Shown: positions 1,677 to 64,000 of the stretch, piece by piece
Numbering within the stretch: the first letter of the stretch is position 1
Layout: each line of letters opens with the position of its first letter
NCBI RefSeq assembly: GCF_021295095.1
Contig: NZ_JAJLQX010000013.1
Location: 30,068 to 94,067, forward strand
DNA length: 64,000 bases
Direction: 5' to 3'
DNA from: Phocaeicola oris
GTDB taxonomy: Bacteria > Bacteroidota > Bacteroidia > Bacteroidales > Bacteroidaceae
The notes under the pieces: model-generated
The model's database searches: none
Seen by the model: the letters and a program-made list of their open reading frames with translations, nothing else
What the model was told of the DNA's origin: nothing
Translations under genes and position numbers: made by a program

Positions 1677-2041
1677 TGTACATGAGTCCGATGAATCTAA
1701 AATAATACGAACTATGTATCTTTACTTCTTAAACGGAGATACTGCTTTTAGAAAATATCAATTATATAAGCTACTGCTCCGATGCGTACGAAGATGAAAA
1801 GTGATACGTATGAGTTGATCGATTCATGCGGATGAGTTGGTTAACTGATGCGGATGAGTTGACAAGTTCATGCGGATGAGTTGACCGATTCATACGGCTC
1901 ACTTTTACCGGTCATCTTGATGATAAATTTAATGAATCTGACGAAAAGGGAAAAACATCGTTTAAACATTCCATAAAGACGTATTCTTCTTTCGTAGGTT
2001 TCTGCATGACCTTTCGGTTATTTCATCGAGCTCTCGTTAAT
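1677..2041 (+). mobile_element. Repeat element copy A: TIR-bounded, no ORF, 22-bp hairpin array inside
   Basis: The left end (about 1679-1697, TGAGTCCGATGAATC) and right end (2020-2040, TTTCATCGAGCTCTCGTTAA) are degenerate inverted copies of the TIR seen best at 38011/38440. The head (1690-1780, AATCTAAAATAATACGAACT then CTTCTTAAA and TATAAGCTACTG) matches copies B and E. The array at 1781-1902 has 22-bp units. The tail (1903-2019, with GGGAAAAACATCGTTTAAAC and GTAGGTTTCTGCATGAC) matches copies B and G. No coding potential seen. It sits between two convergent genes, before a bidirectional terminator. Mobility is inferred from the TIRs and dispersed copies. Confidence 0.7.
1781..1902. repeat. 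22-bp tandem array, five and a half units (in element A)
   Basis: Units start at 1781, 1803, 1825, 1847, 1869 and 1891, all exactly 22 bp apart. The core is CATGCGGATGAGTTG plus about 7 variable bases (GTTAACT, ACAAGTT, ACCGATT). The first unit is the divergent form GATGCGTACGAAGATGAAAAG that also opens the arrays of B and E. The CAT and ATG arms around GCGG form a short dyad in each unit. Confidence 0.9.
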
Positions 2042-2067
2042 ATAAAGCTTAATATCAAAAAATTAAA

Positions 2068-2107
2068 AGGGTTTAGAAAGCTGTTAACTTTCTAAGCCCT
2101 ATTTTTT
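2068..2107. terminator. Bidirectional rho-independent terminator
   Basis: AGGGTTTAGAAAG (2068-2080), a 7-nt loop, then CTTTCTAAGCCCT (2088-2100) form a 13-bp stem with one mismatch. ATTTTTTC follows on the plus strand, and an A-rich run precedes it, giving a U-run on the minus strand. It lies between two convergent genes and suits both. Confidence 0.85.
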
Positions 2108-2140
2108 CACACAAATAACGATAGAATACTATAACTAAAA

Positions 2141-4444
2141 TTATTCTACCATGATCTCATCAACATACATGTGAGCTTCCTTTCCCATACGGGCATGTAA
2201 CTCCGGGCATTTTCCCGAACCTTTAAGAATAATCCGAATATAGCGGGCTGTCCCATTTATAAGAATAGGGAGGTCCTCCACTTCTGTGCCTTCTTTGAAT
2301 ATATCAGCCGTGATATACCGTTGTTCCCCTACTTTCCAATATTGAATGTCATTATCTGACAACAGAATCTTTATAGTTTTTGCCTTATGAACGGCCATAC
2401 CATGATTATTCATCATTCCAATAGTTACTTTGCTCAGCGATTGACGTTTAAGCAAGTCTATTGTTAGACAGACAGAATCGTTCTGTGTCCAACCGGCCCA
2501 CTCTCCATCGGTATACTTTATGCTGCCACGAACCCCATTCAACACATGCTGTTCTAATACGTTACTCCGAAGCAAACGGGTTGCAGTCGCCTTATTATAT
2601 ATAATAGGTATAGTGAGCAATTCTCCCATTCTCTTGTCATTCATAAAGGTAGCAGCCTTTACGGTGGTATTTGCTTTCACCATGATAGGACGATTATACA
2701 AATCGGAATGAGCAGTAGGTTCTTTTCCATCCATAGTATAATGAATTTCCACATCCGGGCGAATACAGCTAAGTTTTACTTGCAACTGCCCATTTCTCGG
2801 AAGCACATCGTGATCTATATTAAACATGGATTTAGCAAAATAGACGCCTTTAACTTTCAGTCGGGTATTAAATACATCCACATTAGTGAGGAAGCTTTTC
2901 CAATTCTTCAGTTCCGGAGCTGTCCAAGCGCTCTCAGCCAAAGCCTCCAAACGAGGAAAAAGCAAATACTCCACATCTTCAGGCTTGTTACAAAACTCTG
3001 TCCATAAAGAGCCTTGAATTCCCAACAGATTCTTTCGAACACTCATCGACCAGCTACGCTCCACCGGTTCATAATCATATACATCCTTCAGCGTATTATT
3101 ATTAGCAAAGTAGGTAATCGGTTCAAACCATTGAGGTCCCTGATAACGGTTGAGACACAGAGCTTCTTCCGGAGTCATGATAAACTTATGCCCCTGTCCT
3201 CCCGCTTGCTCCCCGGCTTTGCCTAACTCTCTCCAACCGAAGATGACTGCTCCTTCAGGTAATGTATTACGTGTAAGTTCATCCCAGCCCATCATCTCTC
3301 GACCTTTACTCCTCAAATATTCATTTACACGACGCATAAAGTAAGTCTGTAAACCGGACACATCATGAATATGTTCTTTCTGCATGCGATCCTGACAAAA
3401 CGGGCACTTTTGCCAATAAGTAGTATTTACCTCATCTCCACCAATATGAATATAATGTGAAGGAAACAAATCTATCACTTCATCCAAAATATCATTAATA
3501 AAAGAAAATACACTGTCATTTCCCGCACAAAAAATAATAGATGTTTGATCACCTCCTAACCCCGGCAATACACCAATGTACTTATCCACAACAGGACAAG
3601 CCAGCATAGGATATGCCGCTAAAGCCGCATTCGAATGAGCCGGCATATCAATTTCCGGAATTACCGTTATCTGCCTTTGTCCGGCATAATTAACAATCTC
3701 CTTAATATCACTCTGCGAATAAAATCCTATTTCTTTTGTCGATTCTCCCTGCCGTGCGTTTCTTCTATCAGGAAAAGGAATTTCTTTACGTTCTACTCTC
3801 CGTGAACCAATTTGCGTCAGTAATGGATACTTTTTTATCTCCAATCTCCAACCGTTACCATCCGTCAGATGCAGATGCAAAGCATTAAGTTTCAAAGAGC
3901 CCATAACGTCAATAATACGAAGCAGCTTTTCCTTTGGAAGAAAGTAACGAGCTACATCTATCATTAGTCCTCGATATTTAAAACGGGGATTATCATTAAT
4001 GATCATGGCCGGTACACTCAATCCTGCTTCTACCTTTCTTGGACTTTCTATTCCGGGAGTCAGCAATTGGCGAATAGTTTGTAATCCATAAAAATACCCT
4101 TTATCTGAAGACGCAGTAATCGTTATCTTTGTCTTTGTAATTTCCAAATTATATGCTTCTTCGGCTAACGATACATCCTTCTTAAATACGACATCCCCTT
4201 TTTGAGTACCAACCTTTATTTTCGGAGTGAAACCGACAGCCTGAGTAAACAAGTTGGTAAATGTTTCAGCAATCTGTTCTTGTCTTTCATTTTCAACTGC
4301 AAAGTCTGTCTTATCTGAGAAAACAAAAAAGCCATCTCCCGGAATAATAATCACCGGCTGTGGAATAATATGCGAAATCGTCTGCGTCCATCCTCCTAAT
4401 GGTAATAAAAATAATGTAATGATCAATAAAAATAACTTATTCAT
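2141..4444 (-). CDS. Beta-N-acetylhexosaminidase, GH20, secreted
   Basis: 767 residues. The first about 20 are a signal peptide (MNKLFLLIITLFLLPLGGWTQ). Domain order: GH20 N-terminal alpha/beta domain (about 25-150), GH20 catalytic barrel (about 155-500) with PRFKYRGLMIDVARYF, HLHLTDGNGWRLEI, VIPEIDMPAHS and the catalytic Asp-Glu pair D337-E338 in HIGGDE. A chitobiase-type C-terminal domain follows (EIHYTMDGKEPT, about 555-610), then a discoidin/CBM32-like beta domain to the end. It releases terminal GlcNAc or GalNAc from glycans or mucin. The gene stands alone with a TATCTTTA -7-like box about 32 nt upstream. Exact linkage cannot be read from sequence. Confidence 0.93.
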   Translation of the reverse strand: MNKLFLLIITLFLLPLGGWTQTISHIIPQPVIIIPGDGFFVFSDKTDFAVENERQEQIAETFTNLFTQAVGFTPKIKVGTQKGDVVFKKDVSLAEEAYNLEITKTKITITASSDKGYFYGLQTIRQLLTPGIESPRKVEAGLSVPAMIINDNPRFKYRGLMIDVARYFLPKEKLLRIIDVMGSLKLNALHLHLTDGNGWRLEIKKYPLLTQIGSRRVERKEIPFPDRRNARQGESTKEIGFYSQSDIKEIVNYAGQRQITVIPEIDMPAHSNAALAAYPMLACPVVDKYIGVLPGLGGDQTSIIFCAGNDSVFSFINDILDEVIDLFPSHYIHIGGDEVNTTYWQKCPFCQDRMQKEHIHDVSGLQTYFMRRVNEYLRSKGREMMGWDELTRNTLPEGAVIFGWRELGKAGEQAGGQGHKFIMTPEEALCLNRYQGPQWFEPITYFANNNTLKDVYDYEPVERSWSMSVRKNLLGIQGSLWTEFCNKPEDVEYLLFPRLEALAESAWTAPELKNWKSFLTNVDVFNTRLKVKGVYFAKSMFNIDHDVLPRNGQLQVKLSCIRPDVEIHYTMDGKEPTAHSDLYNRPIMVKANTTVKAATFMNDKRMGELLTIPIIYNKATATRLLRSNVLEQHVLNGVRGSIKYTDGEWAGWTQNDSVCLTIDLLKRQSLSKVTIGMMNNHGMAVHKAKTIKILLSDNDIQYWKVGEQRYITADIFKEGTEVEDLPILINGTARYIRIILKGSGKCPELHARMGKEAHMYVDEIMVE

Positions 4445-4622
4445 AAATACTTACTTCTTCCTAAATTAAATGTGAAATAAAGATAAAGAGAAAAATGAAT
4501 AGCTCCAAGAGAGCAAATACTTTTTAATGGGATATAGGAGTTTTTGAATAGTTATTAAAATTTATGATAGGATTAAAATAGAAAATGTAGTATCTTTACA
4601 CCCAACTATAAGTAAGTAAAGT

Positions 4623-5267
4623 ATGATATCGTTTAAAGATTTCTTTTCTTTCAAGAACAACCGTTGGTTCTGGATGAATATCATTGGGATGTTAGTCGCA
4701 ATTATCGTGTTGTTTCTTCTTGTTCTTTCCGGACTGAACTTATATACTCACCATGGAGAAGCTGTAGTAGTTCCTGACGTAAAAGGTATGCTGCTCAATG
4801 AAGCTGAACTGAATATCTCAAAAAAAGAATTAAAAACAATTGTTATTGACTCTAACTTCGTCAAAGGTATACCTGTAAATACCATTCTTGAACAAAATCC
4901 GATTGCCGGTCAGAAAGTTAAAAAAGGACGTATGATTTATGTAACAATTTGCACCGATAACGAGCCTTTAGTTACTATCCCCGATATTATTGATAACAGT
5001 TCATACCGCCAAGCAGAAGCACGTCTTAAAGCTCTTGGATTTTTAGTCGATAATCCTAAAATTGTTGCCGGAGAACGAGATTGGGTTTATGGCTTAAAGA
5101 TGGGTGAGAGAACATTAATTGCCGGAGAAAAAATTCCACGCGAATCTCTACTTACGCTCGAAATAGGTAGCGGTTCTAATGACGTTCTTACCGATTCCCT
5201 AACACAGGATTCTATTCGTCCAGTAAAAGAAAAAGAGACTGAAGCTGCTGATGACGCTTGGTTCTAA
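4623..5267 (+). CDS. Membrane-anchored PASTA-domain protein
   Basis: 214 residues: a short cytoplasmic start, one transmembrane helix at about 19-41, then two PASTA domains (about 46-112, opening VVVPDVKGMLLNEAE; and about 115-184, opening VTIPDIIDNSSYRQAEARL), ending in an acidic tail. PASTA domains bind peptidoglycan-like ligands. There is no kinase domain, so this is not a PknB-type receptor; stand-alone versions of this size are familiar in Bacteroidetes. It starts a forward run with rluD (14-bp gap) and ddl, which supports an envelope role. A TATCTTTA -7-like box lies at 4591-4598. Specific function unknown. Confidence 0.85.
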   Translation: MISFKDFFSFKNNRWFWMNIIGMLVAIIVLFLLVLSGLNLYTHHGEAVVVPDVKGMLLNEAELNISKKELKTIVIDSNFVKGIPVNTILEQNPIAGQKVKKGRMIYVTICTDNEPLVTIPDIIDNSSYRQAEARLKALGFLVDNPKIVAGERDWVYGLKMGERTLIAGEKIPRESLLTLEIGSGSNDVLTDSLTQDSIRPVKEKETEAADDAWF

Positions 5268-5281
5268 TCGATAGATGAACT

Positions 5282-6352
5282 ATGGATGAAGAAAGCTTAG
5301 ACATATTAGATGATTCGTTAGATGACATAGAGCCTGTTGGAGAAAAGCCTACAGAACTGTATGAACATTTCCGGGTTGTTGTTGATAAAGGTCAAGCGTC
5401 CATCCGCGTAGATAAGTATCTTGCTGATAAATTTGCCAATATATCAAGAAACCGCATTCAACTGGCTGCTGATGCCGGTATGCTCCGAGCAAATGAAAAA
5501 CCGGTAAAAAGCAGTTATAAAGTGAAAGGTGGTGACATTCTAACCATTATGATGGATCGTCCCCGCTATGATCACGATATCAAACCGGAAAACATTGCTC
5601 TCGATATAGTTTATGAAGATACGGATGTAATTGTTGTCAATAAACCGGCTGGAATGGTAGTCCACCCTGGGTGCGGAAACTATTCCGGAACTATGGTGAA
5701 TGCTATCGCATGGCATTTAAAAGATAATCCGAAATATGATCCTAATGATCCGAGTGTTGGATTAGTTCACCGTATTGATAAAGATACGTCAGGATTATTA
5801 GTGGTTGCTAAAACTCCGGAAGCGAAAACAGATTTAGGGTGGCAATTCTTCAACAAAACCACCAAACGGAAATACATTGCTCTTGTTTGGGGAATCATTG
5901 ATGAGGATGAAGGAACTATTGAAGGTAATATAGGTCGCAACCCTAAAGACCGAATGCAGATGGCTGTACTGAGCGACCCAACCCAAGGCAAGTATGCAGT
6001 CACACATTTTCACGTATTAGAACGCCTTGGATATATAACAAAGGTTGAATGTGTACTCGAAACAGGTAGAACTCACCAGATACGGGTCCACATGAAGCAT
6101 ATCGGACATGTACTATTCAACGACGCCCGCTATGGGGGTGACCAGATTTTAAAAGGAACAAACTTTAGTAAATATAAACAATTTGTAGAAAACTGTTTCA
6201 GAATTTGTCCGCGTCAAGCTCTGCATGCCATGACTCTTGGCTTTACCCATCCACGAACAAAGAAAGAGATGTTTTTTACAGCTCCACTACCTGAAGACAT
6301 ATCTAATCTGATTGATAAATGGAGAAACTATATTAGTAACAGAGAAAAATGA
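5282..6352 (+). CDS. rluD: 23S rRNA pseudouridine synthase, RluD type
   Basis: 356 residues. An acidic N-terminal extension (about 1-30) precedes an S4 RNA-binding domain (about 35-95, IRVDKYLADKF...ISRNRIQ). The RluA-family catalytic domain follows, with the catalytic aspartate D166 in HRIDKDTSGLLVV. It isomerises uridines in helix 69 of 23S rRNA if it is RluD proper; the S4 domain and HRIDKDTSG motif fit RluD/RluC-type enzymes. Its stop overlaps the ddl start (ATGA at 6349-6352), so the two are translationally coupled. The rluD-ddl neighbourhood is common in this order. Confidence 0.9.
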   Translation: MDEESLDILDDSLDDIEPVGEKPTELYEHFRVVVDKGQASIRVDKYLADKFANISRNRIQLAADAGMLRANEKPVKSSYKVKGGDILTIMMDRPRYDHDIKPENIALDIVYEDTDVIVVNKPAGMVVHPGCGNYSGTMVNAIAWHLKDNPKYDPNDPSVGLVHRIDKDTSGLLVVAKTPEAKTDLGWQFFNKTTKRKYIALVWGIIDEDEGTIEGNIGRNPKDRMQMAVLSDPTQGKYAVTHFHVLERLGYITKVECVLETGRTHQIRVHMKHIGHVLFNDARYGGDQILKGTNFSKYKQFVENCFRICPRQALHAMTLGFTHPRTKKEMFFTAPLPEDISNLIDKWRNYISNREK

Positions 6353-7329
6353 AACGAACTATTGCAATAGTTGCCGGAGGTGATTCAAGTGAACTTCCGG
6401 TTTCGCTGCGCAGTGCACAGGGGCTTTACTCTTTCATGGATAAAGAGCGTTATGATTTATATATAGTTGAAATGGAAAGTCATCGTTGGGCTGTCCATTT
6501 AAATGACGGCAACCTTACTCTTATCGATCGTAATGACTTCAGTTTCACAGAAAACGGAAAAAAGAAGCATTTCGACTTCGCATACATCACTATTCATGGT
6601 ACACCGGGTGAGAATGGTCTGTTACAAGGCTATTTTGATATGATGGGTATTCCTTATTCTTCATGTAATGTGTTAGTTTCCGCTATCACATTTAATAAGT
6701 TTTCATGCAACCAATATTTAAAGAGTTTTGGGGTAAAGATCGCAGATTCAATTTTACTCCGCAAAGGTCAACACATCAGTAATGATGAAGTTATCAAACA
6801 GATTGGACTTCCTTGCTTTGTCAAACCAAATGCAGGAGGATCCAGTTATGGAATAACAAAGGTAAAGACCAAAGAAGAAATCCAACCGGCTATTGAGAAA
6901 GCTACTCATGAAAGTGCAGAGGTCATCATTGAAGCTTTTATGAAAGGTATGGAATTGACCTGTGGATGCTACAAAACCCACAAAGTTCAACAAGTGTTTC
7001 CTATTACAGAAGTTGTCTCACATAATGAATTCTTTGATACCGGTGCTAAATATAACGGAGAAGTGGATGAGATTACTCCTGCCCGTATCAGCAATAATTT
7101 GGCTGATCGTATCAGTAAACTCACCTCTTCTATCTATGATATTCTCGGTTGCAACGGTATTATTCGCATTGACTATATAGTAACTGAAGGTGAGGTAATC
7201 AACTTGCTCGAAATCAACACTACTCCGGGCATGACTGCCACCAGTTTTATTCCACAACAGGTCCGTGCTGCCGGTTTAGATATCAAAGATGTACTGACAA
7301 ATATTATTGAAGATAAATTTAACGATTAA
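6349..7329 (+). CDS. ddl: D-alanine--D-alanine ligase
   Basis: 326 residues, ATP-grasp fold. Visible family features: ITIHGTPGENGLLQGYFDMMGIPY in the N-terminal domain (the LHGxxGEDG-like segment), FVKPNAGGSSYGITKVK (ATP grasp), and EINTTPGMTATSFIPQQ (metal-binding ExN...PG). It joins two D-alanines for peptidoglycan precursor synthesis in the cytoplasm. The gene overlaps rluD by four bases and is followed after 3 nt by the acyltransferase gene, consistent with one operon. The N-terminal motif is HGTPGE rather than the classical HGxxGE(D), an ordinary variant. Confidence 0.92.
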   Translation: MKRTIAIVAGGDSSELPVSLRSAQGLYSFMDKERYDLYIVEMESHRWAVHLNDGNLTLIDRNDFSFTENGKKKHFDFAYITIHGTPGENGLLQGYFDMMGIPYSSCNVLVSAITFNKFSCNQYLKSFGVKIADSILLRKGQHISNDEVIKQIGLPCFVKPNAGGSSYGITKVKTKEEIQPAIEKATHESAEVIIEAFMKGMELTCGCYKTHKVQQVFPITEVVSHNEFFDTGAKYNGEVDEITPARISNNLADRISKLTSSIYDILGCNGIIRIDYIVTEGEVINLLEINTTPGMTATSFIPQQVRAAGLDIKDVLTNIIEDKFND

Positions 7330-7332
7330 ATT

Positions 7333-8484
7333 ATGAATATACCAGCAGAATTTGATGAGATTCGCCCGTATGCACCCGAAGAGTTACCTCAAGTATATGA
7401 GGAACTAATCGCCGATCCTGCCTTTCAGAAGGTAGCTACCGGCATCATGCCGGTCCCATTTGAGACTATTGCTCAAGAGATGCGATCTTGTACGTCGAAT
7501 CTGGAGTTTCAAAAGAAATTCTTCTATAACATGATCAAGCAACTGCTGAGTAAACATTCTAAAGGTCTGACAGAAGATTACTCTGCTCTTGATAAGTCTA
7601 TTTGTCATACTTTTATCTCTAACCATCGTGATATTGTAATGGATCCGGGAATTCTTTGTGTCTCTATGATTGACGCGGGGTTTTCGAATACCACAGAAAT
7701 AGCTATCGGTGACAATCTTTTCGCTTATCCTTGGATTAAAAAGTTAGTACGCATAGTTAAAGCTTTTATTGTAAAACGCGGTTTAACAGGTAGAACACAA
7801 TTACAGGCACTGAACACTATGTCGCGTTACATTCACTTTGCTATCACACAAAAACATGAAAATGTATGGATTGCTCAACGTCAGGGAAGAGCTAAAGATT
7901 CTAACGATGCTACACAAGAGAGCATTCTGAAGATGTTAAGTATAGGTGGCGAAGGTTCTATTGTTGAGAAACTATCAGAGATTAACATCGTACCGCTCTC
8001 CCTATCCTATGAATACGACCCATGCGACTATTTGAAAGCTCGTGAATTACAATTACGCAGAGATAATCCGGATTTCCATAAAACTCCGGGAGAAGATGTA
8101 CTAAGCATGCGTACCGGTATCTTCGGCTATAAAGGGCATATCCATTTTCAAGCAGCTCCATGTATTAATAAGGAAATCCAAGAGCTGGCTATACAATATC
8201 CGAAGAAAACAGACTTTTTCCCTGCCCTTGCAAAACTGATGGACAAACATATTTACTCTTGTTACCACATCTTCCCATCGAATTATATCGCACTCGACTG
8301 GATAGAAGGTAGCCAGCACTTTAAAGATAAGTATACGGCCAATGATAAATTAGAATTTGAACAATATATCTACAAGCAATTAACAAAGATTGAGTTGCCA
8401 AACAAAGATGAATCATTCTTACTTGAACTATTACTGAAAATGTACGCCAACCCTCTCATCAATTATCTCTCTGTACAAGAATGA
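7333..8484 (+). CDS. Putative phospholipid/glycerol acyltransferase (LPLAT-like)
   Basis: 383 residues, soluble. The core FISNHRDIVMDPGIL (H98, D100, D104) resembles the acyl acceptor motif of PlsC/GPAT acyltransferases, but the His-to-Asp spacing is HX5D rather than HX4D. A later GEGSIVEKLSEINIVPLSLSYE block resembles the family's second half. The likely substrate is a glycerol-3-phosphate or lysophosphatidate, or another acyl acceptor. It is the fourth gene of the forward run and overlaps the next lipoprotein gene by four bases (ATGA at 8481). Acyl donor and acceptor cannot be deduced. Confidence 0.7.
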   Translation: MNIPAEFDEIRPYAPEELPQVYEELIADPAFQKVATGIMPVPFETIAQEMRSCTSNLEFQKKFFYNMIKQLLSKHSKGLTEDYSALDKSICHTFISNHRDIVMDPGILCVSMIDAGFSNTTEIAIGDNLFAYPWIKKLVRIVKAFIVKRGLTGRTQLQALNTMSRYIHFAITQKHENVWIAQRQGRAKDSNDATQESILKMLSIGGEGSIVEKLSEINIVPLSLSYEYDPCDYLKARELQLRRDNPDFHKTPGEDVLSMRTGIFGYKGHIHFQAAPCINKEIQELAIQYPKKTDFFPALAKLMDKHIYSCYHIFPSNYIALDWIEGSQHFKDKYTANDKLEFEQYIYKQLTKIELPNKDESFLLELLLKMYANPLINYLSVQE

Positions 8485-14864: not shown

Positions 14865-15246
14865 ATAACGTAAATTCGATGAAATAACAGAGAAGTCATA
14901 CAGATTCCCATGAAGGTAGAATATGGTCTTGTAGTATGTTGACAAGGTGTTTTTCCCTTTTTGTTTGGTTCATTAAAATGGTCATAAAGACGCGGAGGAA
15001 AAGTCATGCGGATGAATCAACCAACTCATGCGGATGAATCGTCCAATTCATACGGATGACTTGTCAAACTCATACGCATCAGTTGAGCAACTCATACGCA
15101 TCAGTTGAGCAACTCATACGCATCACTTTTTATCTTCATACGCATCAGGATAATAGCTTATATTGTTGATATTAACGGTGTATCCTTTTAAGAAGAAACA
15201 ATGATACAGAGTTCGTATTATTTTAGATTCGTCGAACTCACCTTAA
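14865..15246 (-). mobile_element. Repeat element copy B: TIRs, conserved head and tail, 22-bp array
   Basis: Head end on the right: GATTCGTCGAACTCACCTTAA at 15226-15246 (shown in plus sense), with AGTTCGTATTATTTTAGATTC beside it. Tail end on the left: ATAACGTAAATTCGATGAAA from 14865. The inverted ends match each other apart from a few bases and match copy G. Interior order in reverse complement: head, 22-bp array, tail (AAAAAGGGAAAAACACC, TTTATGACCATTTTAATGAA). It lies between the argF' stop and the hcp control region. No ORF. Head identity with copy E is high, over about 100 bp. Confidence 0.75.
15003..15156. repeat. 22-bp tandem array, seven units (in element B)
   Basis: Units start every 22 bp from 15003 to 15135. 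In plus sense the core is CTCATACGCATCAGTTGAGCAA, and three middle units are nearly identical. Read across unit borders, CAACTCAT and ATnAGTTG flank a 4-nt centre, giving an 8-bp dyad per unit. AGTTG/CAACT can also pair across the 2-nt border. Confidence 0.92.
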
Positions 15247-18821: not shown

Positions 18822-18824
18822 ACC

Positions 18825-26277: not shown

Positions 26278-26480
26278 ATCTGATACGTATAAAGATGGGA
26301 AATGATGTTGATAAAACGATCGTTTCACATTAGTGAGACGATTGTTTCACATTAGTGAGACGATTGTTTCACATTAGTGAGACGACTGTTTCACATTAGT
26401 GAGACGACTGTTTCACATCAGTGAGACGATCGGTTCATCAGTATGACATGACAGCATGTTCACCATAACATTAAAAACTG
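26278..26480 (+). repeat. Decayed element copy C with homogeneous 22-bp GTTTCAC array
   Basis: The array runs 26318-26450: five units of the form CGATTGTTTCACATTAGTGAGA and a sixth diverged one (CGATCGGTTCATCAGTATGACA), all 22 bp. Each holds a GTTTCAC-ATTA-GTGAGAC dyad (one G-T mismatch). Units 1-4 differ at only one or two bases, so the expansion is recent or homogenised. The left flank (GATACGTATAAAGATGGGAAATGATG, 26282-26307) copies the first-unit region of A, B and E. The right flank ATTAAAAACTGATCAAAATAAAG weakly recalls the tail. Terminal inverted repeats were not found. Confidence 0.88.
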
Positions 26481-37992: not shown

Positions 37993-38010
37993 TACTATCT
38001 GCTATCTATC

Positions 38011-38440
38011 TTAACGTGAGTTCGACGAATTCAAAATAATGTAAGCCGCGTATCTCCGCAGCTTCTTAAACAGACACGCAAATCTTTGAAGAAATCAATG
38101 GTACACGGCTACTACCCCGATACGTAGGAACAAAGAAAGTGGCCATATATGTTGCCGTATTCATCAAAAGAATTTTTCGTTTCACAGATGTGATACATTC
38201 GTTTCACTGATGTGATACACTTGTTTCACTGATGTGAGTCACTTGTTTCACCTATGTGAAACAAGTAGATTATGCGTATGAGTTGAGTGATTCATACGGT
38301 TCTTTTTTACTAATCTCTTTATGACAATTTTAAAGAACCTGATAAAAAGAGAAAAACATCGTTTTAAACATACTATAAGGTCGTATCCATCTTTGTAGAT
38401 TTCTACATAGGCATCCTGTTATTTCATCGAATTCACGTTA
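38011..38440 (+). mobile_element. Repeat element copy G: best-preserved TIRs, hybrid 22-bp array
   Basis: Left end TAACGTGAGTTCGACGAA (38012-38029) and right end TTCATCGAATTCACGTTA (38423-38440) are inverted copies with 16 of 18 matching. TCT flanks both sides, a possible 3-bp target duplication in this copy only. The head (38030-38143) is diverged but alignable to A and E (ends TACTACCCCGATACGTAGGAA). A 22-bp array follows at 38178-38302. The tail 38303-38421 (GAGAAAAACATCGTTTTAAA, GTAGATTTCTACAT) matches A closely. No ORF. It lies between the YjjG-like gene and the susC promoter. Confidence 0.8.
38178..38302. repeat. Hybrid 22-bp array: four GTTTCAC units plus one ATGCGTATGAGTTG unit
   Basis: Units of 22 bp start at 38178, 38200, 38222 and 38244 (CGTTTCACTGATGTGATACACT type). 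After a 5-nt phase shift a unit of the other type (TATGCGTATGAGTTGAGTGATT) starts at 38271, followed by a half unit. The fourth unit gives a perfect 11-bp inverted repeat ACTTGTTTCAC / GTGAAACAAGT around CTAT. Confidence 0.9.
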
Positions 38441-38508
38441 TCTTATATAGAAAAACATATCAAGTGGTTTGATAATTTCCGAATTTTATGGCCGTCACTT
38501 TTTCTGTT

Positions 38509-47922: not shown

Positions 47923-47964
47923 TTCGGTTGATTCAACAGCGTCGTCAAGAGAACATTAAAAACT

Positions 47965-48096
47965 GACGCGGATGAACTGCTCAACTCACGCGGATGAGTT
48001 GCTCGGTTCATGCGGACGAGTTGTCCAACTCATGCTGATGAGTTTGCCGATTCATGCGTATGAGTTTATCCGTTTGTACGTATCAGTTGATAAGGA
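47965..48096. repeat. 22-bp tandem array D, six units, no TIRs found
   Basis: Units start at 47965, 47987, 48009, 48031, 48053 and 48075. The cores are GACGCGGATGAACTG, CACGCGGATGAGTTG, CATGCGGACGAGTTG, CATGCTGATGAGTTT, CATGCGTATGAGTTT and TGTACGTATCAGTTG. The 22-bp period is exact although every unit differs. The site lies between the convergent fumarase and M28 peptidase genes. I found neither the head nor the tail of the longer elements around it. The rest of the interval 48097-48216 shows nothing clear. Confidence 0.88.
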
Positions 48097-53841: not shown

Positions 53842-53844
53842 CAA

Positions 53845-54070
53845 CTGCTCGACAGTGCTTTTACACAAGAAAATGAATCGGCGAGCTGCTCGACAGTGCT
53901 TTTACACAAGAAAATGAATCGGCGAGCTGCTCGACAGTGCTTTTACACAAGAAAATGAATCGGCGAGCTGCTCGACAATGCTTTTACACAAGAAAATGAA
54001 TCGGCGAGCTGCTCGACAGTGCTTTTACACAAGAAAATGAATCGGCGAGCTGCTCGACAGTGCTTTTACG
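53845..54070. repeat. 41-bp minisatellite, five full copies plus a partial one
   Basis: Copies start at 53845, 53886, 53927, 53968, 54009 and 54050, exactly 41 bp apart. The unit begins CTGCTCGACAGTGCTTTTAC and ends AAATGAATCGGCGAG. Only one change is seen (ACAGTG to ACAATG in copy 4). Unit junctions make CGAGCTGCTCG, a perfect 5-1-5 dyad. No coding role: a short frame crosses it but has no family. The stretch 54071-54146 shows nothing. Confidence 0.95.
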
Positions 54071-54146
54071 TGAAAAGAAGGCCTGTCGTCGACAAAAACG
54101 ATATGAAAAATGATACATCGGCTGTGGTGATGGAAATCGCTGCCGG

Positions 54147-55442: not shown

Positions 55443-55444
55443 AA

Positions 55445-56188: not shown

Positions 56189-56203
56189 GTTAAGTTATTT
56201 TTA

Positions 56204-56569: not shown

Positions 56570-56656
56570 GGGTCTGTCTATTTTCTGATTGCAAAATTAC
56601 GCAATTTATTGCATTATTGAAGAACGAAAACTAAATTTGTGGAAAATAATGACGAT

Positions 56657-57091: not shown

Positions 57092-57093
57092 AA

Positions 57094-57327
57094 TCAGTCC
57101 TCTTTCTTTTCTTCAAAGTCAATGTATTCCCCTTCATCTTCTTTGAAAATCTTTCCTGTTGAGTGAGCATAATTGGAAAGGTTACGTTCCTCGTCAATCG
57201 GTTGGCGAGGTTGCCGCTTTTTGGTCTTAAACAAATTGGAGAATCCATTCACAGCTTTACTGATGATGTAAAGTCCGATGAAAATGAATATCAGAATAAG
57301 CGATAAAAAGAACAAAAGGATATGCAT
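57094..57327 (-). CDS. DUF4834-family small membrane protein
   Basis: 77 residues: one N-terminal membrane helix (about 3-24), then a basic and an acidic tail (EERNLSNYAHSTGKIFKEDEGEYIDFEEK). This matches the Bacteroidales DUF4834 pattern. It lies 19 bp after pssA and so is part of the phospholipid operon. Function unknown. Confidence 0.8.
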   Translation of the reverse strand: MHILLFFLSLILIFIFIGLYIISKAVNGFSNLFKTKKRQPRQPIDEERNLSNYAHSTGKIFKEDEGEYIDFEEKKED

Positions 57328-57346
57328 AGTTGGAAAAGGCTTTAAA

Positions 57347-58054: not shown

Positions 58055-58060
58055 AGCAAC

Positions 58061-58747
58061 TTACTTTAGGCGGGCAATGACAGTTTGGTTTCCTGTCGTC
58101 TTTTGTCCCATCTTAACACATACTTCTGTACCGAGTGGCAGGTATACGTCTACACGGGACCCAAACTTAATAAATCCCATGTGTTCGTCGATAAAGCAAT
58201 TTTCACCTTCGCTGGCGTATGTCACAATGCGTCGGGCAATAGCTCCGGCAATCTGACGTATCAGTATTTCCGTTCCTTCAGGAGTTTCTATTATAATAGC
58301 CGAACGTTCGTTCTCTGTGCTGGCTTTGGGAAGGTAAGCTGCTTGAAACCTTCCGTCTTGATGATAGACCTTTTTAACAATTCCATCCACAGGGTACCAG
58401 TTGGCATGTACATTAGTCAGGCTCATGAAAATGGAAATCATGATACAGCGTTGACGCAGGAATTCCGTTTCCTCTACCTCTTGTGCTACTACAATCTTTC
58501 CATCAGCAGGCGCGACGACTACTTTTTCAGTGTCTTCTTCAAATAGACGAACAGGGCATTGAAAGAAGTTTACCATCAGTCCGTAAACGACGCAACTTAT
58601 AGCTGCAAGAATATAAAAAGGAATCTTACTGCTGAATAAGTAAAATATTGCAGCATTTAGAATGATAAGGGCGACAGCACTGCCAATCAGTATTTCTGTA
58701 CCTTCACGATGAAGTCTTATCTTTTTTAATTTCTTAATTTTGTTCAT
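58061..58747 (-). CDS. psd: Phosphatidylserine decarboxylase, proenzyme
   Basis: 228 residues. Two N-terminal helices (about 20-60), core with [10 protein letters not shown], then [14 protein letters not shown]. Self-cleavage would fall between Gly196 and Ser197 and make the pyruvoyl group. This short archaeal-like form is standard in Bacteroidetes. It makes phosphatidylethanolamine. A strong promoter lies upstream. Confidence 0.94.
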
Positions 58748-58767
58748 CTGAATGACTTAAAACAAGG

Positions 58768-58799
58768 CAAAAATACGTCTATTTTATTCAACCTGCAAA
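58768..58799 (-). promoter_or_regulatory. Promoter of the psd-pssA operon
   Basis: On the minus strand TTTG (58796-58799), 20 nt, TATTTTTG (58768-58775): full consensus, about 20 nt before the psd ATG. Confidence 0.8.
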
Positions 58800-58860
58800 T
58801 AAAAGACCGGCTAATTGGATGGCTATTTGCGTTTTTCTGTTAGCCGTATGGATTGTTAAT

Positions 58861-58909
58861 AACTTCTTTAAGAAGTTTTTGCAAGTAAAAGTTATTAGCG
58901 GTATCTTTG
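58861..58909 (+). promoter_or_regulatory. dnaE promoter with adjoining perfect dyad
   Basis: TTTG (58878-58881), 20 nt, TATCTTTG (58902-58909): full consensus. AACTTCTT-T-AAGAAGTT (58861-58877) is a perfect 8-bp dyad touching the -33 box. Confidence 0.75.
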
Positions 58910-58930
58910 AGTACTTTTGAAAGGATATAT

Positions 58931-61900
58931 ATGGAAGATTTTGTTCATTTACACGTACATACACATTATTCTATACTTGATGGTATGTCACGAATACCCA
59001 AATTGGTCAACAAGGCTATTACTGATGGAATGAAAGGACTTGCCATTACGGATCATGGCAACATGTTCAGTATCAAGGAATTTTTTGATTATTGTAATAA
59101 GATTAATGACGACCGGAAAAAGGAAGGTAAGGAGCTTTTCAAACCTATTTTTGGTTGCGAGATGTACGTTGCTCATCACAATAAGGAAGATAAAGTGAAA
59201 GAGAACGGTGATATAAGCGGTTATCATCTGATTGTTTTGGCTAAAAATAAAAACGGTTATAAGAACCTGATTAAGTTGGTTTCCCGTTCTTGGGTCGATG
59301 GATTTTATCAGCGTCCTCGAACTGACCGAAAAGATCTTGAAAAATATCATGAGGATTTAATTGTTTGTTCTGCTTGTATAGCCGGAGAAGTGCCATCAAA
59401 GATTTTAAAAGGTGATATGAAAGGTGCTCGGGAGGCTATTGAATGGTATCATAATTTGTTCGGTGATGATTATTATCTGGAAATACAGCGTCATGAGGTA
59501 ACAAACCCTAATATTCATGCGAACAGAGATACCTATCCCCTTCAACAAAAAGCAAATAAGGTAATCTTTGAGCTGGCAAAGGAATATGGTATAAAAGTGA
59601 TCTGCACTAACGATTGCCATTTTGTGGATGAGGACGATGCTGAAGCTCACGATATATTGCTTTGTCTTTCGACTGGAAAAGATTTGGATGACCCTACTCG
59701 TATGCTTTATTCTAAACAAGAGTGGTTCAAGACAAAGAAGGAAATGAATGAAATCTTTGCTGATGTTCCTGAGACATTGAGCAATACGCTTGAGATATTA
59801 AATAAGGTAGAGACCTATAGCATAGATATGGATCCTATCATGCCGTTTTTCCCTATTCCGAAGGAATTCGGTACAGAGGAGGATGTGCGTAAGAAGTATA
59901 CCGAGAAACAACTATATGACGAATTCACCAGCGATGAAAACGGAGAAAATCAGCTAAATGAGGAAACAGGAAAGAAGAAAATCGAACACTTAGGTGGATA
60001 CGATAAACTTTACAGAATTAAATTTGAAGCTGAGTATTTAGCAAAGTTGGCTTATGATGGCGCAAAGAAGCGGTATGGTGATCCGATTCCACAAGAAGTG
60101 TTTGACAGGATTAAGTTTGAATTGCATGTCATGAAGACCATGGGATTCCCCGGATACTTTCTTATAGTTCAAGATTTTATCAATGCAGCTCGTAACGAAC
60201 TCGGAGTAATGGTTGGACCAGGTCGTGGCTCAGCCGCGGGATCTGTTGTTGCTTATTGTTTGGGAATCACAAAGATTGACCCGATAAAATACGATTTGCT
60301 GTTTGAGCGTTTCCTGAATCCTGACCGTATTTCATTACCTGATATTGACACTGATTTTGATGATGACGGACGCGGGAAGGTACTCAATTGGGTTGCCGAC
60401 AAGTATGGACATGAGAATTGCGCGCATATCATTACTTATGCAAGTATGGCCACGAAGAATTCTATCAAGGATGTGGCTCGAGTGGAGAAAGTGCCGTTGG
60501 ATACGGCAAACAAACTTTGTAAGGATATCCCGGATCGCTTGCCGGATGGATTGAAAATGAATTTGACAAATGCTATTAAATGTACGCCTTCTCTCCAAGA
60601 AGCAGAAGTTGCTACGGACAAGAATCTTTCGGATACCATAAAATACGCGAAAAAGTTGGAAGGTACTATTCGTGGAACGGGTATTCATGCCTGTGGCTTC
60701 ATTATCTGCCGTGGGCCCATTAGCGATTGGGTTCCTCTCTCAACAGCAGACGACCCTGATTTTCCGGGAAAGAAGACAAATTGTACACAGTATGATGGGC
60801 ATGTCATTGAATCGACCGGATTGATTAAGATGGACTTTTTAGGTCTAAAAACCCTTTCCGAGTTGAAAGAAGCTGTTCAGAATATACATGATACAGTAGG
60901 AGCAGATATTGACTTGGATACGATTCCTATTGATGATGAACTCACATACAAGTTATATCAAGAGGGACGGACAATTGGCACGTTTCAGTTTGAATCTCCG
61001 GGCATGCAGAAGTATCTGCGCGAGTTAAAGCCGACTGTTTTTGAAGATTTGATAGCCATGAATGCCCTTTATCGTCCGGGACCTATGGATTATATCCCTT
61101 CATTCATTGCCCGAAAGAACGGAAAGGAAGAAATAAAATACGATATTCCATGTATGGAGAAATATTTGAAAGATACTTATGGAATCACAGTATATCAAGA
61201 GCAGGTCATGTTGCTCAGTCGTCAGTTAGCTAATTTTACCCGAGGCGAGAGTGATGCTTTGCGAAAGGCGATGGGTAAGAAAAAGAAAGCTATTGTAGAT
61301 GCAATGAAGCCTAAGTTCATTAAACAGGGACAGGAAAATGGATACGATCCAAAAATCCTTGAGAAAATATGGAGCGATTGGGAGAAGTTCGCGTCTTATG
61401 CATTTAATAAGTCGCATGCCACCTGCTATTCTTGGGTAGCCTATCAGACCGCATACCTTAAAGCTCATTATCCGGCAGAGTTTATGGCGGCTATTATGAG
61501 CCGTAGAAAGAATGACATAAAAGAGATAACCAAGCTGATGGCCGAATGCAAATCCTTAGGAATCCCAACGTTGGGACCAGATGTAAATGAGAGTCGTTTG
61601 AAGTTTAGCGCAAATAAAAAAGGTGAGATTCGTTTTGGTATGGGCGCAGTTAAAGGCGTTGGAGAAGCTGCAGTGGAAAGTATCGTTGAAGAGCGTGAAA
61701 AGAATGGCCCGTTTAAAAGTATTTTCGATTTTGTCCAGCGTGTCAATTTGTCTGCATGCAATAAGAAAACAATAGAAAGTCTGGCTTTAGCAGGAGCATT
61801 TGATAATTTTAAAGAGATTCATCGTGAAGATTTCTTTGTTTTGAATTCCAAAGGAGAGATGTTTAGTGATATACTTGTCCGTTATGGAGTAAAATATCAA

Positions 61901-62731
61901 GCAGATCAGCAAAGTTCGGCAAATTCTCTTTTCGGCGATATGGGAGGTATTGAGATTGCAACACCTGAAATTCAACGGGGAGAAGCTTGGTCTGATTTGG
62001 AGCGGCTAAACAAGGAGCGTGATTTGGTTGGCATCTACTTATCGGCTCATCCGTTAGATGAATATGCTGTTATTCTTGAGAATGTATGTAATGTCAGGAT
62101 GACCGATTTGGATGATCTTTCTTCATTATATGATAAAGATATCACTGTGGGAGGTATTGTTACAGAGACAAAGCAAATGACAACAAAGCGTGGGAATCCG
62201 ATGGGCAAAGTGAAAATTGAGGATTATAGCGGAGCGCATGAATTTGTCTTTTTTGATCGAGATTGGTTGGATAAAGAGAAATATTTTGCTCCGGGGATGT
62301 TCCTCTTCATGCGTGGTCGTTGTCAACCGAAAAAATGGAGGCAGGATGAGTATGAGATAGCCATAAACACCATAGAGCTATTGCCTGAAGTGAAAGAGCG
62401 TGCCATTCAAAAACTGATGGTTAAGGTTCCGCTTTCTTGCATCAACGAGGACTTTGTGGCAGAATTCAATGAACAAGTGAAGGATAATCCGGGGAACGCA
62501 GAACTTTGTTTCATGATTTTTGATGATGATCAGGTATCTCAAATTACTATGTCAACTCGTAAGGGAAGTATATCTGTCCATAAAGAATTAATGGATTTTT
62601 TGGATAGTCAGCCTCGTATAGATTATCAGATAAATGATGGTATTACAAAGAGTGATAAACTTCACCGATTGAAAAAGGATGAAGTCGAGGAAGAGGAACT
62701 GCCTGTTATGGAAGAAGTGCTTGATAATTAA
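58931..62731 (+). CDS. dnaE: DNA polymerase III subunit alpha
   Basis: 1266 residues from the ATG at 58931; an upstream ATG lies within the -7 box and is rejected. PHP domain at the N-terminus (VHLHVHTHYSILDG), C-family polymerase with VGPGRGSAAGSVVAY and the catalytic PDIDTDFDDDGRG, HhH and OB fold (ITVGGIVTETKQMTTKRGNPMG). It is the replicative polymerase. Length is normal for DnaE1 of this phylum. Confidence 0.97.
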   Translation: MEDFVHLHVHTHYSILDGMSRIPKLVNKAITDGMKGLAITDHGNMFSIKEFFDYCNKINDDRKKEGKELFKPIFGCEMYVAHHNKEDKVKENGDISGYHLIVLAKNKNGYKNLIKLVSRSWVDGFYQRPRTDRKDLEKYHEDLIVCSACIAGEVPSKILKGDMKGAREAIEWYHNLFGDDYYLEIQRHEVTNPNIHANRDTYPLQQKANKVIFELAKEYGIKVICTNDCHFVDEDDAEAHDILLCLSTGKDLDDPTRMLYSKQEWFKTKKEMNEIFADVPETLSNTLEILNKVETYSIDMDPIMPFFPIPKEFGTEEDVRKKYTEKQLYDEFTSDENGENQLNEETGKKKIEHLGGYDKLYRIKFEAEYLAKLAYDGAKKRYGDPIPQEVFDRIKFELHVMKTMGFPGYFLIVQDFINAARNELGVMVGPGRGSAAGSVVAYCLGITKIDPIKYDLLFERFLNPDRISLPDIDTDFDDDGRGKVLNWVADKYGHENCAHIITYASMATKNSIKDVARVEKVPLDTANKLCKDIPDRLPDGLKMNLTNAIKCTPSLQEAEVATDKNLSDTIKYAKKLEGTIRGTGIHACGFIICRGPISDWVPLSTADDPDFPGKKTNCTQYDGHVIESTGLIKMDFLGLKTLSELKEAVQNIHDTVGADIDLDTIPIDDELTYKLYQEGRTIGTFQFESPGMQKYLRELKPTVFEDLIAMNALYRPGPMDYIPSFIARKNGKEEIKYDIPCMEKYLKDTYGITVYQEQVMLLSRQLANFTRGESDALRKAMGKKKKAIVDAMKPKFIKQGQENGYDPKILEKIWSDWEKFASYAFNKSHATCYSWVAYQTAYLKAHYPAEFMAAIMSRRKNDIKEITKLMAECKSLGIPTLGPDVNESRLKFSANKKGEIRFGMGAVKGVGEAAVESIVEEREKNGPFKSIFDFVQRVNLSACNKKTIESLALAGAFDNFKEIHREDFFVLNSKGEMFSDILVRYGVKYQADQQSSANSLFGDMGGIEIATPEIQRGEAWSDLERLNKERDLVGIYLSAHPLDEYAVILENVCNVRMTDLDDLSSLYDKDITVGGIVTETKQMTTKRGNPMGKVKIEDYSGAHEFVFFDRDWLDKEKYFAPGMFLFMRGRCQPKKWRQDEYEIAINTIELLPEVKERAIQKLMVKVPLSCINEDFVAEFNEQVKDNPGNAELCFMIFDDDQVSQITMSTRKGSISVHKELMDFLDSQPRIDYQINDGITKSDKLHRLKKDEVEEEELPVMEEVLDN

Positions 62732-62804
62732 TTTCTTTTTCGTTTACCCATTATGGTATCAAATTTGTAAGTAAACAAAAGTATAATGATTAAATATTTC
62801 AATT

Positions 62805-63119
62805 ATGGTTTCAAAAATTACAGATCAGAATTCTAAAGAGGTATTAAGCGGTAGTAAGCCGATAGTGATTGATTTTTGGGCTACATGGTGCGGACCATGT
62901 AGAAAGATCGGGCCGGATATTGAAGCTTTGGGTGAACAGTATGCTGACCGGATTACTACAGTGAAATGTGATGTGGATGAGAATAATTATTTAGCTTCTG
63001 AATATGGCATTCGTAACATACCGACAGTTTTGTTCATTAAAAATGGTGAGATTGTAGATAAGATGGTAGGAGCAGCTCCCAAGTCGACTATTGAAGAGAA
63101 ATTCAAGAAATTACTTTAA
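62805..63119 (+). CDS. trxA: Thioredoxin
   Basis: 104 residues, no signal peptide. Active site WCGPC with C29 and C32 in FWATWCGPCRKIGP, cis-Pro in RNIPTVLFI. Cytoplasmic disulphide reductase. It lies 73 bp after dnaE and 10 bp before the next gene. Confidence 0.96.
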   Translation: MVSKITDQNSKEVLSGSKPIVIDFWATWCGPCRKIGPDIEALGEQYADRITTVKCDVDENNYLASEYGIRNIPTVLFIKNGEIVDKMVGAAPKSTIEEKFKKLL

Positions 63120-63129
63120 TATATTTATT

Positions 63130-63453
63130 ATGGCACAAGATGACGATTTCTTAATAGAAGGCGCTGAAGATGATTTGAAAACTATTCAATACATTCGAAA
63201 TTTTCTTCCGCAGGAATTAAAGAATAAGTTTACGGATACTGATTTGTATTATATCGTTGATGTGATTACAGATTATTATACGAATAGTGGTATACTGGAA
63301 CAGAAACCTGATAAAGATGGTTTTATTAATGTTGACCAGGATGTTATTGTAGATTATATTCTAAAGGAAGCGAAGAAAGATGGAATGGGACCGTATGAGG
63401 CAGATGATGTTTTCTTTGTCGTTCAGGGAGAAGCCGAAAGTATAGAAGAATAA
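63130..63453 (+). CDS. Small acidic conserved protein of unknown function
   Basis: 107 residues from the ATG at 63130 (MAQDDDFLIEGAEDD). Strongly acidic with three or four helices (KTIQYIRNFLPQELKNKF, DLYYIVDVITDYYTNSG, IVDYILKEAKKDGMG). It lies 10 bp after trxA, so likely in the same transcript. Similar genes beside trxA are seen in Bacteroidales; role unknown. Confidence 0.75.
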   Translation: MAQDDDFLIEGAEDDLKTIQYIRNFLPQELKNKFTDTDLYYIVDVITDYYTNSGILEQKPDKDGFINVDQDVIVDYILKEAKKDGMGPYEADDVFFVVQGEAESIEE

Positions 63454-63509
63454 AAATCCCATTTAACAATATTGCTGTCTGGTAAGTTTTTTTAGCTACC
63501 TATAAAATT

Positions 63510-63545
63510 AAGGTTGACACTTCTCACGAGGTATCAGCCTTTTTG
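63510..63545 (+). terminator. Terminator after the trxA pair
   Basis: AAGGTTGACAC (63510-63520), 10-nt loop, GTATCAGCCTT (63531-63541), two non-Watson-Crick pairs, then TTTTG. Confidence 0.7.
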
Positions 63546-63652
63546 ATTACCTTTGAGTTGTAAGACAAAAAGCGTATAACCATGCGCAAAGACAGTCGTT
63601 TTACCGAACAGCAATAATAGAAAATACAATAAGTCTTGAAAAATTATCATAA

Positions 63653-63885
63653 GATAACATAAGTTCGACGAATCTAAAATAATACGAACTCTGTATCATT
63701 ATTTCTTCTTAAAAGGATACACCATTAATATCAACAATATAAGCTACTGATTTGATGCGTATGAAGATGAGAAGTGATGCGTATGAGTTGCTCAAGTCAT
63801 CCGCATGAGTTGCTCAAGTCATCCGCATGAGTTGCTCGGTTCATGCGTATGAGTTGGTTGATTCATCCGTATGATGACTTTACCT
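63653..63885 (+). mobile_element. Repeat element copy E: head and array, tail missing
   Basis: The left end ATAACATAAGTTCGACGAAT (63653 on) and head (AATCTAAAATAATACGAACT, CTGTATC, TTCTTCTTAAAAGGATACAC, ATATCAACAATATAAGCTAC) match copy B almost base for base. The array at 63754-63885 has six 22-bp units. The tail seen in A, B and G should begin near 63886 but is absent up to 64000. The copy is truncated or interrupted. Confidence 0.75.
63754..63885. repeat. 22-bp tandem array, five full units plus a diverged sixth (in element E)
   Basis: Units start at 63754, 63776, 63798, 63820, 63842 and 63864. Cores: GATGCGTATGAAGATGAGAAGT (first-unit type), then GATGCGTATGAGTTGCTCAAGT and CATCCGCATGAGTTGCTCAAGT, the last type repeated almost unchanged. 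Confidence 0.92.
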
Positions 63886-64000
63886 GATTTTACTAGACAC
63901 TTTTTTGCTACATTAGCTGAACCGGTAGACACTTTTTTCCTTGCCATACTGATTCCCTATACACCATCGAGCAACCCGTGCTGTTTTGATAGACAGTGCA
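63886..64000. other. Foreign-looking sequence that interrupts element E
   Basis: It holds two direct copies of TAGACACTTTTTT (63894 and 63926, 32 bp apart) and no match to the element tail. Such closely spaced end repeats recall termini of some insertion sequences. A terminal dinucleotide or transposase gene cannot be seen because the window ends. Confidence 0.4.

Follow-up and report, generated by a model that had tools for sequence, protein, structure and literature searches.

IS982-derived miniature elements of Phocaeicola oris carry 22-bp arrays of putative binding sites, one class of which resembles the private promoter array of an HU-winged-helix gene

Plasmid iterons are sets of several repeats of 17-22 bp, arranged in helical phase beside the gene of a winged-helix DNA-binding Rep initiator. 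On the side of the proteins, an expansion of the HU superfamily in Bacteroidetes was reportedly described by Burroughs and coworkers in 2017, and it is said to include the protein family (Pfam HU-HIG) that is also discussed here; we know of no cognate DNA arrays from that work, and HU-like proteins are numerous in Bacteroidetes. Among mobile elements, the closest described system is BrickBuilt, a group of miniature inverted-repeat transposable elements (MITEs) confined to Porphyromonas gingivalis and P. gulae, in which, according to the parts of the paper at hand, a leader and a tail with short inverted ends enclose a minisatellite of ~22-23 bp, the copies being intergenic and without a transposase (PMC4596501). 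For MITEs related to the IS982 family of insertion sequences (ISs), a literature search listed one paper, on Cardinium. Here, we analyze elements with the BrickBuilt plan in a stretch of 64,000 nucleotides of Phocaeicola oris (the window), i.e., positions 30068-94067 of contig 4 (NZ_JAJLQX010000013.1) in a genome of 2.98 Mb and 50 contigs (GCF_021295095.1); the end of the window is the contig end. An initial annotation had pointed out four copies, A, B, G, and E, with internal 22-bp arrays and had recognized no described family in them. Since BrickBuilt, as far as the excerpts show, has the same plan, that statement was too strong (PMC4596501).

We are confident, as judged from their ends, that these dispersed elements are MITEs of IS982 origin. 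Probably, they have picked up and disseminated the operator array of a protein in which an HU domain is fused to a winged helix-turn-helix (HU-wHTH) and which would bind this array. The copy that illustrates this best is G (38013..38439, forward strand), a young MITE that is alone among the window copies in having perfect terminal inverted repeats (TIRs). Comparison of its flanks reveals a target-site duplication, ATCTT, on the left (38008..38012) and on the right (38440..38444). Its head (38013..38130, forward strand), the outer part of which is related to the right end of an IS982-family IS, is followed by an array of TCAC-N4-GTGA per 22 bp (38177..38263, Tandem Repeats Finder), referred to as class 2, which matches the promoter array of the HU-wHTH gene C6:45060, and by a tail (38285..38439, forward strand) with the inverted TIR at its end. 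Three sister copies elsewhere in the genome, C3:4763-5190, C12:42465-42870, and C33:121855-122304, are 94-97% identical to it.

The parentage of the elements can be read from their ends. The TIR pattern AACGTGARTTCGAYGAA, with at most three mismatches, was found at 131 places in the genome vs. 22 for a control pattern. Perfect TIRs often lie ~109 bp inside contig ends, where they open one of two sequences, i.e., the start of an IS982-type transposase or the right end of the IS. The ends of IS982-family ISs in this genome carry the identical 17-bp TIR, and the terminal inverted repeats are thus common to the MITEs and an autonomous element. For four of seven left-end stubs of this IS, a right-end stub with a matching 5-bp flank is available (AAAGT, AAGAT, ATATT, and AAAAT). 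These matching flanks at contig ends imply that the IS is present in multiple copies that were collapsed in the assembly. Among the best 80 of 489 confirmed loci with relatives of the IS in GTDB representatives, the left TIR is present in 75 and both TIRs (13 bases, at most two mismatches) in 60, and the length is mostly 1026-1030 bp; the transposase of one relative scored 256 bits against the NCBIfam model for IS982 (NF033520). The complete IS, of ~1028 bp, is almost filled by the gene for a transposase of 301 amino acids plus the ends.

The heads of six MITEs (A, B, G, E, and two elsewhere), with the TIR included, all align to the right end of the IS with scores above those of 1000 out of 1000 shuffled sequences. 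When the TIR was left out, four of the six still exceeded all 1000 shuffles, while the scores of B and G were reached by five and three shuffles, respectively. For the head of copy G, the score was 68, against a shuffle maximum of 32, and 28 without the TIR. The likeness of heads and TIRs, which according to the initial annotation might vanish in a statistical alignment, is therefore upheld. A derivation of the tail from the left end of the IS was also considered, but was discarded: in shuffle-tested alignments, the tails of copies A, B, and G resemble this end in the TIR only. A weak likeness was seen in the copies C3:55134 and C13:45507, the scores of which were reached by 18 and 13 of 1000 shuffles, respectively, and against a second left-end sequence the score of C3:55134 was reached by 227. 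Since the ends of the MITEs are those of an IS982-family IS and the head corresponds to its right end, the elements are best regarded as IS982-derived MITEs. The derivation from IS982 and the movement in trans by the full IS are well supported, and the mobilizing enzyme is most likely the IS982-family transposase. Thus, the suggestion that the elements are MITE-like, bear TIRs, and are moved by an enzyme encoded elsewhere has found its counterpart in a multicopy IS with shared ends.

Several lines of evidence support mobility of the elements. When 26 TIR pairs were examined, all five with 0-1 mismatches in total carried exact 5-bp duplications (ATCTT twice, AAATT, ATTTT, and AATTT), whereas 5-bp matches between flanks of different elements occurred in nine of 650 control pairings. 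The other 21 pairs, which include A and B and some spurious pairings, show no 5-base duplication and two of 4 bases. One of the five duplicated copies, C1:1194-1843, is a chimera, in which a MITE tail and array are joined to an IS982 left end, the whole being flanked on either side by AATTT; of the 194 flank bases compared, most are shared with the copy at C12:42870. Orthologous intergenic regions, proposed earlier as a place to look for empty sites, provided one informative case. In the relative G026, the gene pair that flanks copy G is separated by 362 bp, as compared to 809 bp in the window, including the 427-bp element. Without the element and one of the 5-bp repeats, the gap in the window would measure 377 bp. 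One syntenic relative thus lacks copy G, but G026 is too diverged for the exact empty target to be visible. When copy G was used as a query against its own genome and 59 relatives, the element was found in its own genome only, where at least 40 places match the tail; three relatives match the TIR and the adjoining right end of the IS only.

IHF and HU serve as bending cofactors of other transposons. The arrays could, therefore, be accessory sites for the transposition of the element itself, with the HU-wHTH protein as a bending cofactor recruited by the MITE. The presence of an HU domain would suit such a function, as would the occurrence of the array in both young and old copies. However, the ~1028-bp IS leaves little room for an array next to its transposase gene and ends, and in a 344-kb subset of the sequence surveyed, 15 of 21 arrays have no MITE head or tail alongside, the other six having a detectable one. 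We consider this explanation quite unlikely.

The arrays were surveyed in 744 kb, made up of the window and of 34 further stretches of 20 kb whose placement took no account of arrays. This sequence contains 42 arrays, of which 27 belong to class 1, eight to class 2, and five to class 3, whilst two are without a class. Extrapolated to the genome, this amounts to ~170 arrays. The earlier estimate of hundreds of copies per genome thus fits the arrays, but recognizable MITEs are fewer. Classes 1 (CATNCGNATGA) and 2 (GTTTCAC-N4-GTGAAAC) share one register, TCAY-N4-RTGA per 22 bp, and both occur within MITEs; neither of the two class-3 arrays read (L194 and L197) has a MITE head or tail alongside. 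A leader motif, TTCATCAGAAG, has array words of either class nearby at 31 places in the sequence examined. An exact pattern for a class-1 double unit gave no match among GTDB representatives, a set in which the present genome may not be included. In the relative G029, words like AACGCATCCGCATGAGTT occur at seven places; no 22-bp array is present at the one that was read (L216), and these words perhaps belong to another interspersed repeat.

The units do not vary evenly. Among 181 class-1 units from 53 arrays, within-array variation at positions 5, 7, 8, and 10 and at their mirror positions 11, 13, 14, and 16 is 0-4%, as compared to 9-32% at the others. In class 2, ten symmetric positions vary by 0-2% and the others by 5-26%, with position 16 deviating by 6% from the global consensus. 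In arrays that lack MITE ends, the constraint is closely similar, though based on fewer units, and in class 1 flank position 18 also has a low value. For comparison, after removal of near-duplicates the heads have a mean identity of 64% and the tails of 67%, and columns conserved at 0.97 or higher number 13 of 123 in heads and 16 of 139 in tails. As judged from this variation, the pattern is that of a site for a dimer rather than of a hairpin. The impression that the tandem dyad core is unlike that of an ordinary MITE proved fruitful; a dyad-symmetric core is constrained in both classes tested (1 and 2).

The same data bear on the possibility that the elements are MITEs of the BrickBuilt type with a neutral minisatellite, i.e., that the array was trapped by chance, grew by slippage, and has no binding partner. 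BrickBuilt, with its leader, tail, inverted-repeat ends, and 23-bp minisatellite, offers a precedent in the sections of the paper available (PMC4596501), unit number differs between sister copies, and the arrays lie between genes without a bias towards promoters. Slippage and neutral decay, however, predict uniform variation across the unit, which is not the distribution just described. Furthermore, arrays in this register occur in 15 of 30 genera and private arrays precede HU-wHTH genes (see below), and even in BrickBuilt, a copy of 84 nt is located upstream of a PF00216 gene, as stated in the same excerpts (PMC4596501). A neutral origin therefore appears unlikely.

A functional stem-loop would be another possibility, i.e., an RNA or DNA hairpin element, similar to repetitive extragenic palindromes (REPs) and bacterial interspersed mosaic elements (BIMEs) or acting as a terminator or attenuator, and moved by a REP-associated tyrosine transposase (RAYT). 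Indeed, the RNA of copy G has a better fold than each of 100 shuffled sequences (z -5.5). Compensatory variation is nevertheless absent. In class-1 units, 853 of 1360 cells are Watson-Crick pairs vs. a shuffled mean of 936, and none of 2000 shuffles was at or below this number; the deficit probably results from mixed orientations of the units. Class 2 had the same outcome. As paired positions vary without compensation, hairpins are not the conserved feature of the 22-bp arrays, contrary to what had been assumed at first. Also the proposed relation to RAYTs and BIMEs is not supported: Y1_Tnp (PF01797) had no match at E 0.001 in this assembly, which is 95% complete, whilst five of 14 control genomes do have a match, and together with the lack of covariation this led us to reject the REP/BIME candidate. 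An RNA family was likewise dismissed, since at Rfam gathering scores the sole match in the window is a tRNA and none is located at the elements. Altogether, a hairpin function is hardly credible. Phage origin, finally, was considered and rejected; a scan of a viral collection yielded one contig with an exact 4-unit TCAY-N4-RTGA array (L346, IMGVR_UViG_3300012992_000316:10702-10779).

Similar arrays are widespread in the family. Three TCAYNNNNRTGA units spaced at 22 bp, with one mismatch allowed, were found in 70 of 399 genomes of the family, the present one included, and in 15 of 30 genera. The pattern occurs at 398 places in this genome and at 1 to 83 in the other positive ones, and a reversed control gave 12 forward places. 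Twenty arrays read in relatives consist of three to five, mostly four, units, and the linkers between the units, judged by eye, differ from species to species. Six of these 20 are located directly upstream of a gene for an HU-like protein. The HU-like proteins beside arrays match Pfam HU-HIG (five scanned), i.e., an HU domain fused to a wHTH, an Ig, or a glycine-rich motif according to Pfam, and remain under the cut-off of NCBIfam HU_rel (six). Some of the HU-wHTH genes with their array are divergent from a VapE-like gene (L334, L343, and L344; L485, NZ_OY725911.1), and others from genes of the BT4734/BF3469 family. A conserved operon around HU-wHTH genes was considered and rejected, since in a scan of 48 neighbors, only the VapE-like gene recurs (two of 48) among the 25 commonest Pfam families listed.

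The link with HU-like proteins was pursued in 15 genomes chosen for having arrays, in which HU-HIG gave 225 matches. Since the model also has matches in nine of 14 control genomes, ordinary HU proteins can be among these. In 86 usable promoters, a TCAY-type array of at least three units is present in 15, distributed over 13 of the 15 genomes, and all of these precede genes for long proteins of at least 185 amino acids (15 of 55 vs. none of 31 shorter ones). Among upstream regions of other open reading frames (ORFs), 12 of 174 have a TCAY array, and all 12 are in loci of HU arrays, which are common to divergent or overlapping ORFs. A motif-free test, in which tandem periodicity had to exceed that of 40 shuffles, was passed by 47 of 55 long and 12 of 31 short HU-HIG genes and by 17 of 132 non-overlapping control upstream regions. 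With the period restricted to 21-23 bp, these numbers are 44 of 55, five of 31, and 10 of 132 (Fisher 9e-23 for the controls and 1e-8 for the short proteins). These promoter arrays of long HU-HIG genes are private, with about four units each, and 43 different unit consensuses are represented among the 44. In the present genome, all four long HU-HIG genes examined have an array of their own and the short one does not, against a background of 23 in 1500 random 300-bp pieces at this period. The array of one of the genes, C16:22324 (L354), with a period of 23 bp, 13-bp dyads, and, by eye, a 5-nt center, is unlike the 22-bp ones. All 55 long proteins match HU-HIG, and in a profile of them, the C-terminal part weakly reaches two solved transcription regulators.

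A second set, not picked for arrays, comprised all 12 records with a homolog in a plasmid collection, which were typed as non-mobilizable and come from Bacteroides finegoldii (five), Bacteroides sp. CACC 737 (one), Phocaeicola massiliensis (four), and Parabacteroides distasonis (two). A promoter array was found in 11 of 12, as compared to one of 12 pieces downstream of the genes. Five unverified phage records contain a homolog as well, and two of the three that were read pass the test.

Some dispersed arrays match individual promoter arrays. Seventeen hand-chosen dispersed arrays were compared, nine from other species and eight from the present genome, and for 14 of them the promoter with the highest score belongs to the same genome. 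The array of copy G scored 99 with the promoter of C6:45060, as compared to 54 for the best in any other genome. Two further class-2 arrays also match this gene, and two class-3 arrays match gene C11:131577. The class-2 arrays are therefore likely to be private sites of HU-wHTH proteins. For class 1, a similar function may be presumed from the shared register only.

Alternatively, the arrays may be ordinary operators of regulons controlled by HU-wHTH proteins, some of which were taken along by MITEs by chance. That the arrays of other species have no IS982 TIR is in line with this idea, and so is the position of the 14 relatives' arrays away from HU genes, nine of the 11 with both neighbors called being situated between co-directional ORFs. 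However, in the young MITEs of the present genome array, leader, and ends form a single unit flanked by target-site duplications, and the arrays of this genome lack a promoter bias. A regulon deduced from gene orientation was rejected for the latter reason, no clear bias over background being seen. A purely regulatory explanation is rather unlikely.

Several observations weigh against capture and spread of HU-wHTH operators by IS982 MITEs. With respect to the IS, three of the seven left-end stubs, all with TATTT, are without a 5-bp partner, having four bases in common with the remaining right ends, and, among the 60 complete relatives of the IS, only 10 have an exact 5-bp duplication at the boundaries taken. 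None of the 20 array loci from other genomes carries the IS982 TIR, with up to three mismatches, and another route of spread must therefore exist. Within the present genome, arrays show no promoter bias, 10 lying between tandem, seven between convergent, and two between divergent genes vs. 34, 22, and 14 in the background, and 22 of 539 ORF upstream regions have periodic arrays as well. The promoter survey covered only 90 of the 225 HU-HIG matches, mostly the higher-scoring ones and all from array-picked genomes; of the 44 promoter arrays, only 15 have a consensus dyad that is significant by itself, and at least two arrays of the second set (L478 and L487) are near copies of arrays in the first (L393 and L381). 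Pfam assigns winged-helix families to a minority among the 55 long proteins, the commonest, HTH_24, to seven, and to no short protein out of 31. Among the 14 matches within the same genome, the two of G355 are modest (50 vs. 46 and 31). Finally, class 1 is the commonest class and forms the core of A, B, and E, but no promoter matches any of the three class-1 arrays compared, which include that of copy A, five of the eight HU-HIG promoters of the genome being covered, and no HU-wHTH gene with a class-1 array is present in the sequence examined.

Taken together, the elements may be understood as miniatures of the ~1.03-kb IS982-family IS that kept the TIRs and the right end and lost the transposase gene. 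The full IS would move them in trans, generating 5-bp AT-rich target duplications. The core would be a row of ~4-6 dyad-symmetric putative protein-binding sites, TCAY-N4-RTGA, spaced by 22 bp, i.e., two helical turns, and the class-2 row is closely related to the promoter array of C6:45060. Each HU-wHTH protein may read its own private array with the winged helix, bend the DNA with the HU domain, and control its own promoter, much like iteron-bound initiators do. IS982 MITEs would have taken up two types of array, classes 1 and 2, and dispersed them, which would have given rise to the ~170 arrays per genome. Binding and autoregulation, the extension to class 1, and any benefit to the element or the cell are inferences.

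There are three further copies in the window. Copy A (1679..2038, forward strand) consists of a head, a class-1 array of four units with the CATNCGNATGA core (1810..1897), and a tail; its TIRs have three and two mismatches, and there is no target-site duplication. Copy B (14867..15244, reverse strand) has the same order in inverted orientation with a class-1 array at 15004..15128, one mismatch in each TIR, and no target-site duplication. Copy E (63656..63880, forward strand) comprises a head and a class-1 array (63772-63874), which ends ~125 bp short of the contig end; no tail is seen. The four copies are thus located where the initial annotation had placed them, with heads common to all and tails common to A, B, and G, and the absence of genes was confirmed by zero closed ORFs of at least 80 amino acids within A, B, and G. 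The inverted ends are real, but they are perfect in G only and decayed in A and B, and E starts at 63656. Array-only sites are present at 26316..26437 (class 2, GTTTCAC-N4-GTGA, 5.5 units), with C6:45060 as the best HU-promoter match, and at 47961..48066 (class 1), with the leader motif TTCATCAGAAG on the right in the complementary strand; all six arrays in the window were delimited with Tandem Repeats Finder. A 41-bp tandem repeat of 5.5 copies with 98% matches is located at 53845-54069; 41-nt repeats have been described, in the passages of the source at hand, for PgRS MITEs of P. gingivalis (PMC4596501).

If each long HU-like protein has its own DNA address, its targets could be read from the sequence and tested singly. 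This could also explain minisatellites inside MITEs such as BrickBuilt, in which the repeat would be an operator and not junk, and transposition would then spread the binding sites of a host chromosome protein. A more far-reaching view, which we present as conceivable but tentative, is that Bacteroidales possess proliferating self-addressed nucleoid proteins with one private promoter code of about four helically phased dyads of 21-23 bp per HU-wHTH paralog, and that mobile elements capture these addresses and spread them by hundreds, thereby re-drawing HU-type chromosome organization or silencing. BrickBuilt and the arrays in the window would then represent two independent captures.

In the literature searched, the coverage of which was partial, no account of HU-wHTH arrays was found. 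Some described systems share parts of the plan. Compared with iterons, the arrays described here are distinguished by the HU domain of the presumed partner, the dyad units, and the chromosomal scatter, and a role in replication is not implied. With the IS982-family IS, the MITEs share the TIR and the right end, but the transposase (NF033520) is encoded by the IS and not by the MITE. Another P. gingivalis element, MITE239, has a TIR, ACGTGAGTTCGATATAAAGGAA, that is nearly the same as the IS982-family ends found here, AACGTGAGTTCGATATAAGGAA; in the available parts of the paper, however, the related ISPg3 is filed under IS5, unlike the IS982 assignment made here, and the MITE239 elements ("236") seem to be without mini- or microsatellites (PMC4596501). 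According to the same parts, the minisatellite of BrickBuilt is ~23 bp instead of 22 bp, and its TIR is of the GAGACCTTTGCA type (GAGACC, likened to IS5 elements), whereas that of the present elements is of the AACGTGAGTTCGA type (PMC4596501). Because the TIRs differ, the present elements, judged by plan and TIR, are of the same kind as BrickBuilt, but not of the same family. The passages seen do not link the BrickBuilt repeat to a DNA-binding protein (PMC4596501). Nevertheless, they locate BrickBuilt_14 between PGN_0871 (-) and PGN_0872 (+, PF00216 DNA-binding) and give it, at 84 nt, the smallest total length, although another passage names BrickBuilt_9 as the shortest (PMC4596501). These passages neither comment on this neighborhood nor describe the copy as lacking leader and tail. 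By its position and length, BrickBuilt_14 has the size of an array and lies upstream of a gene for an HU-type protein.

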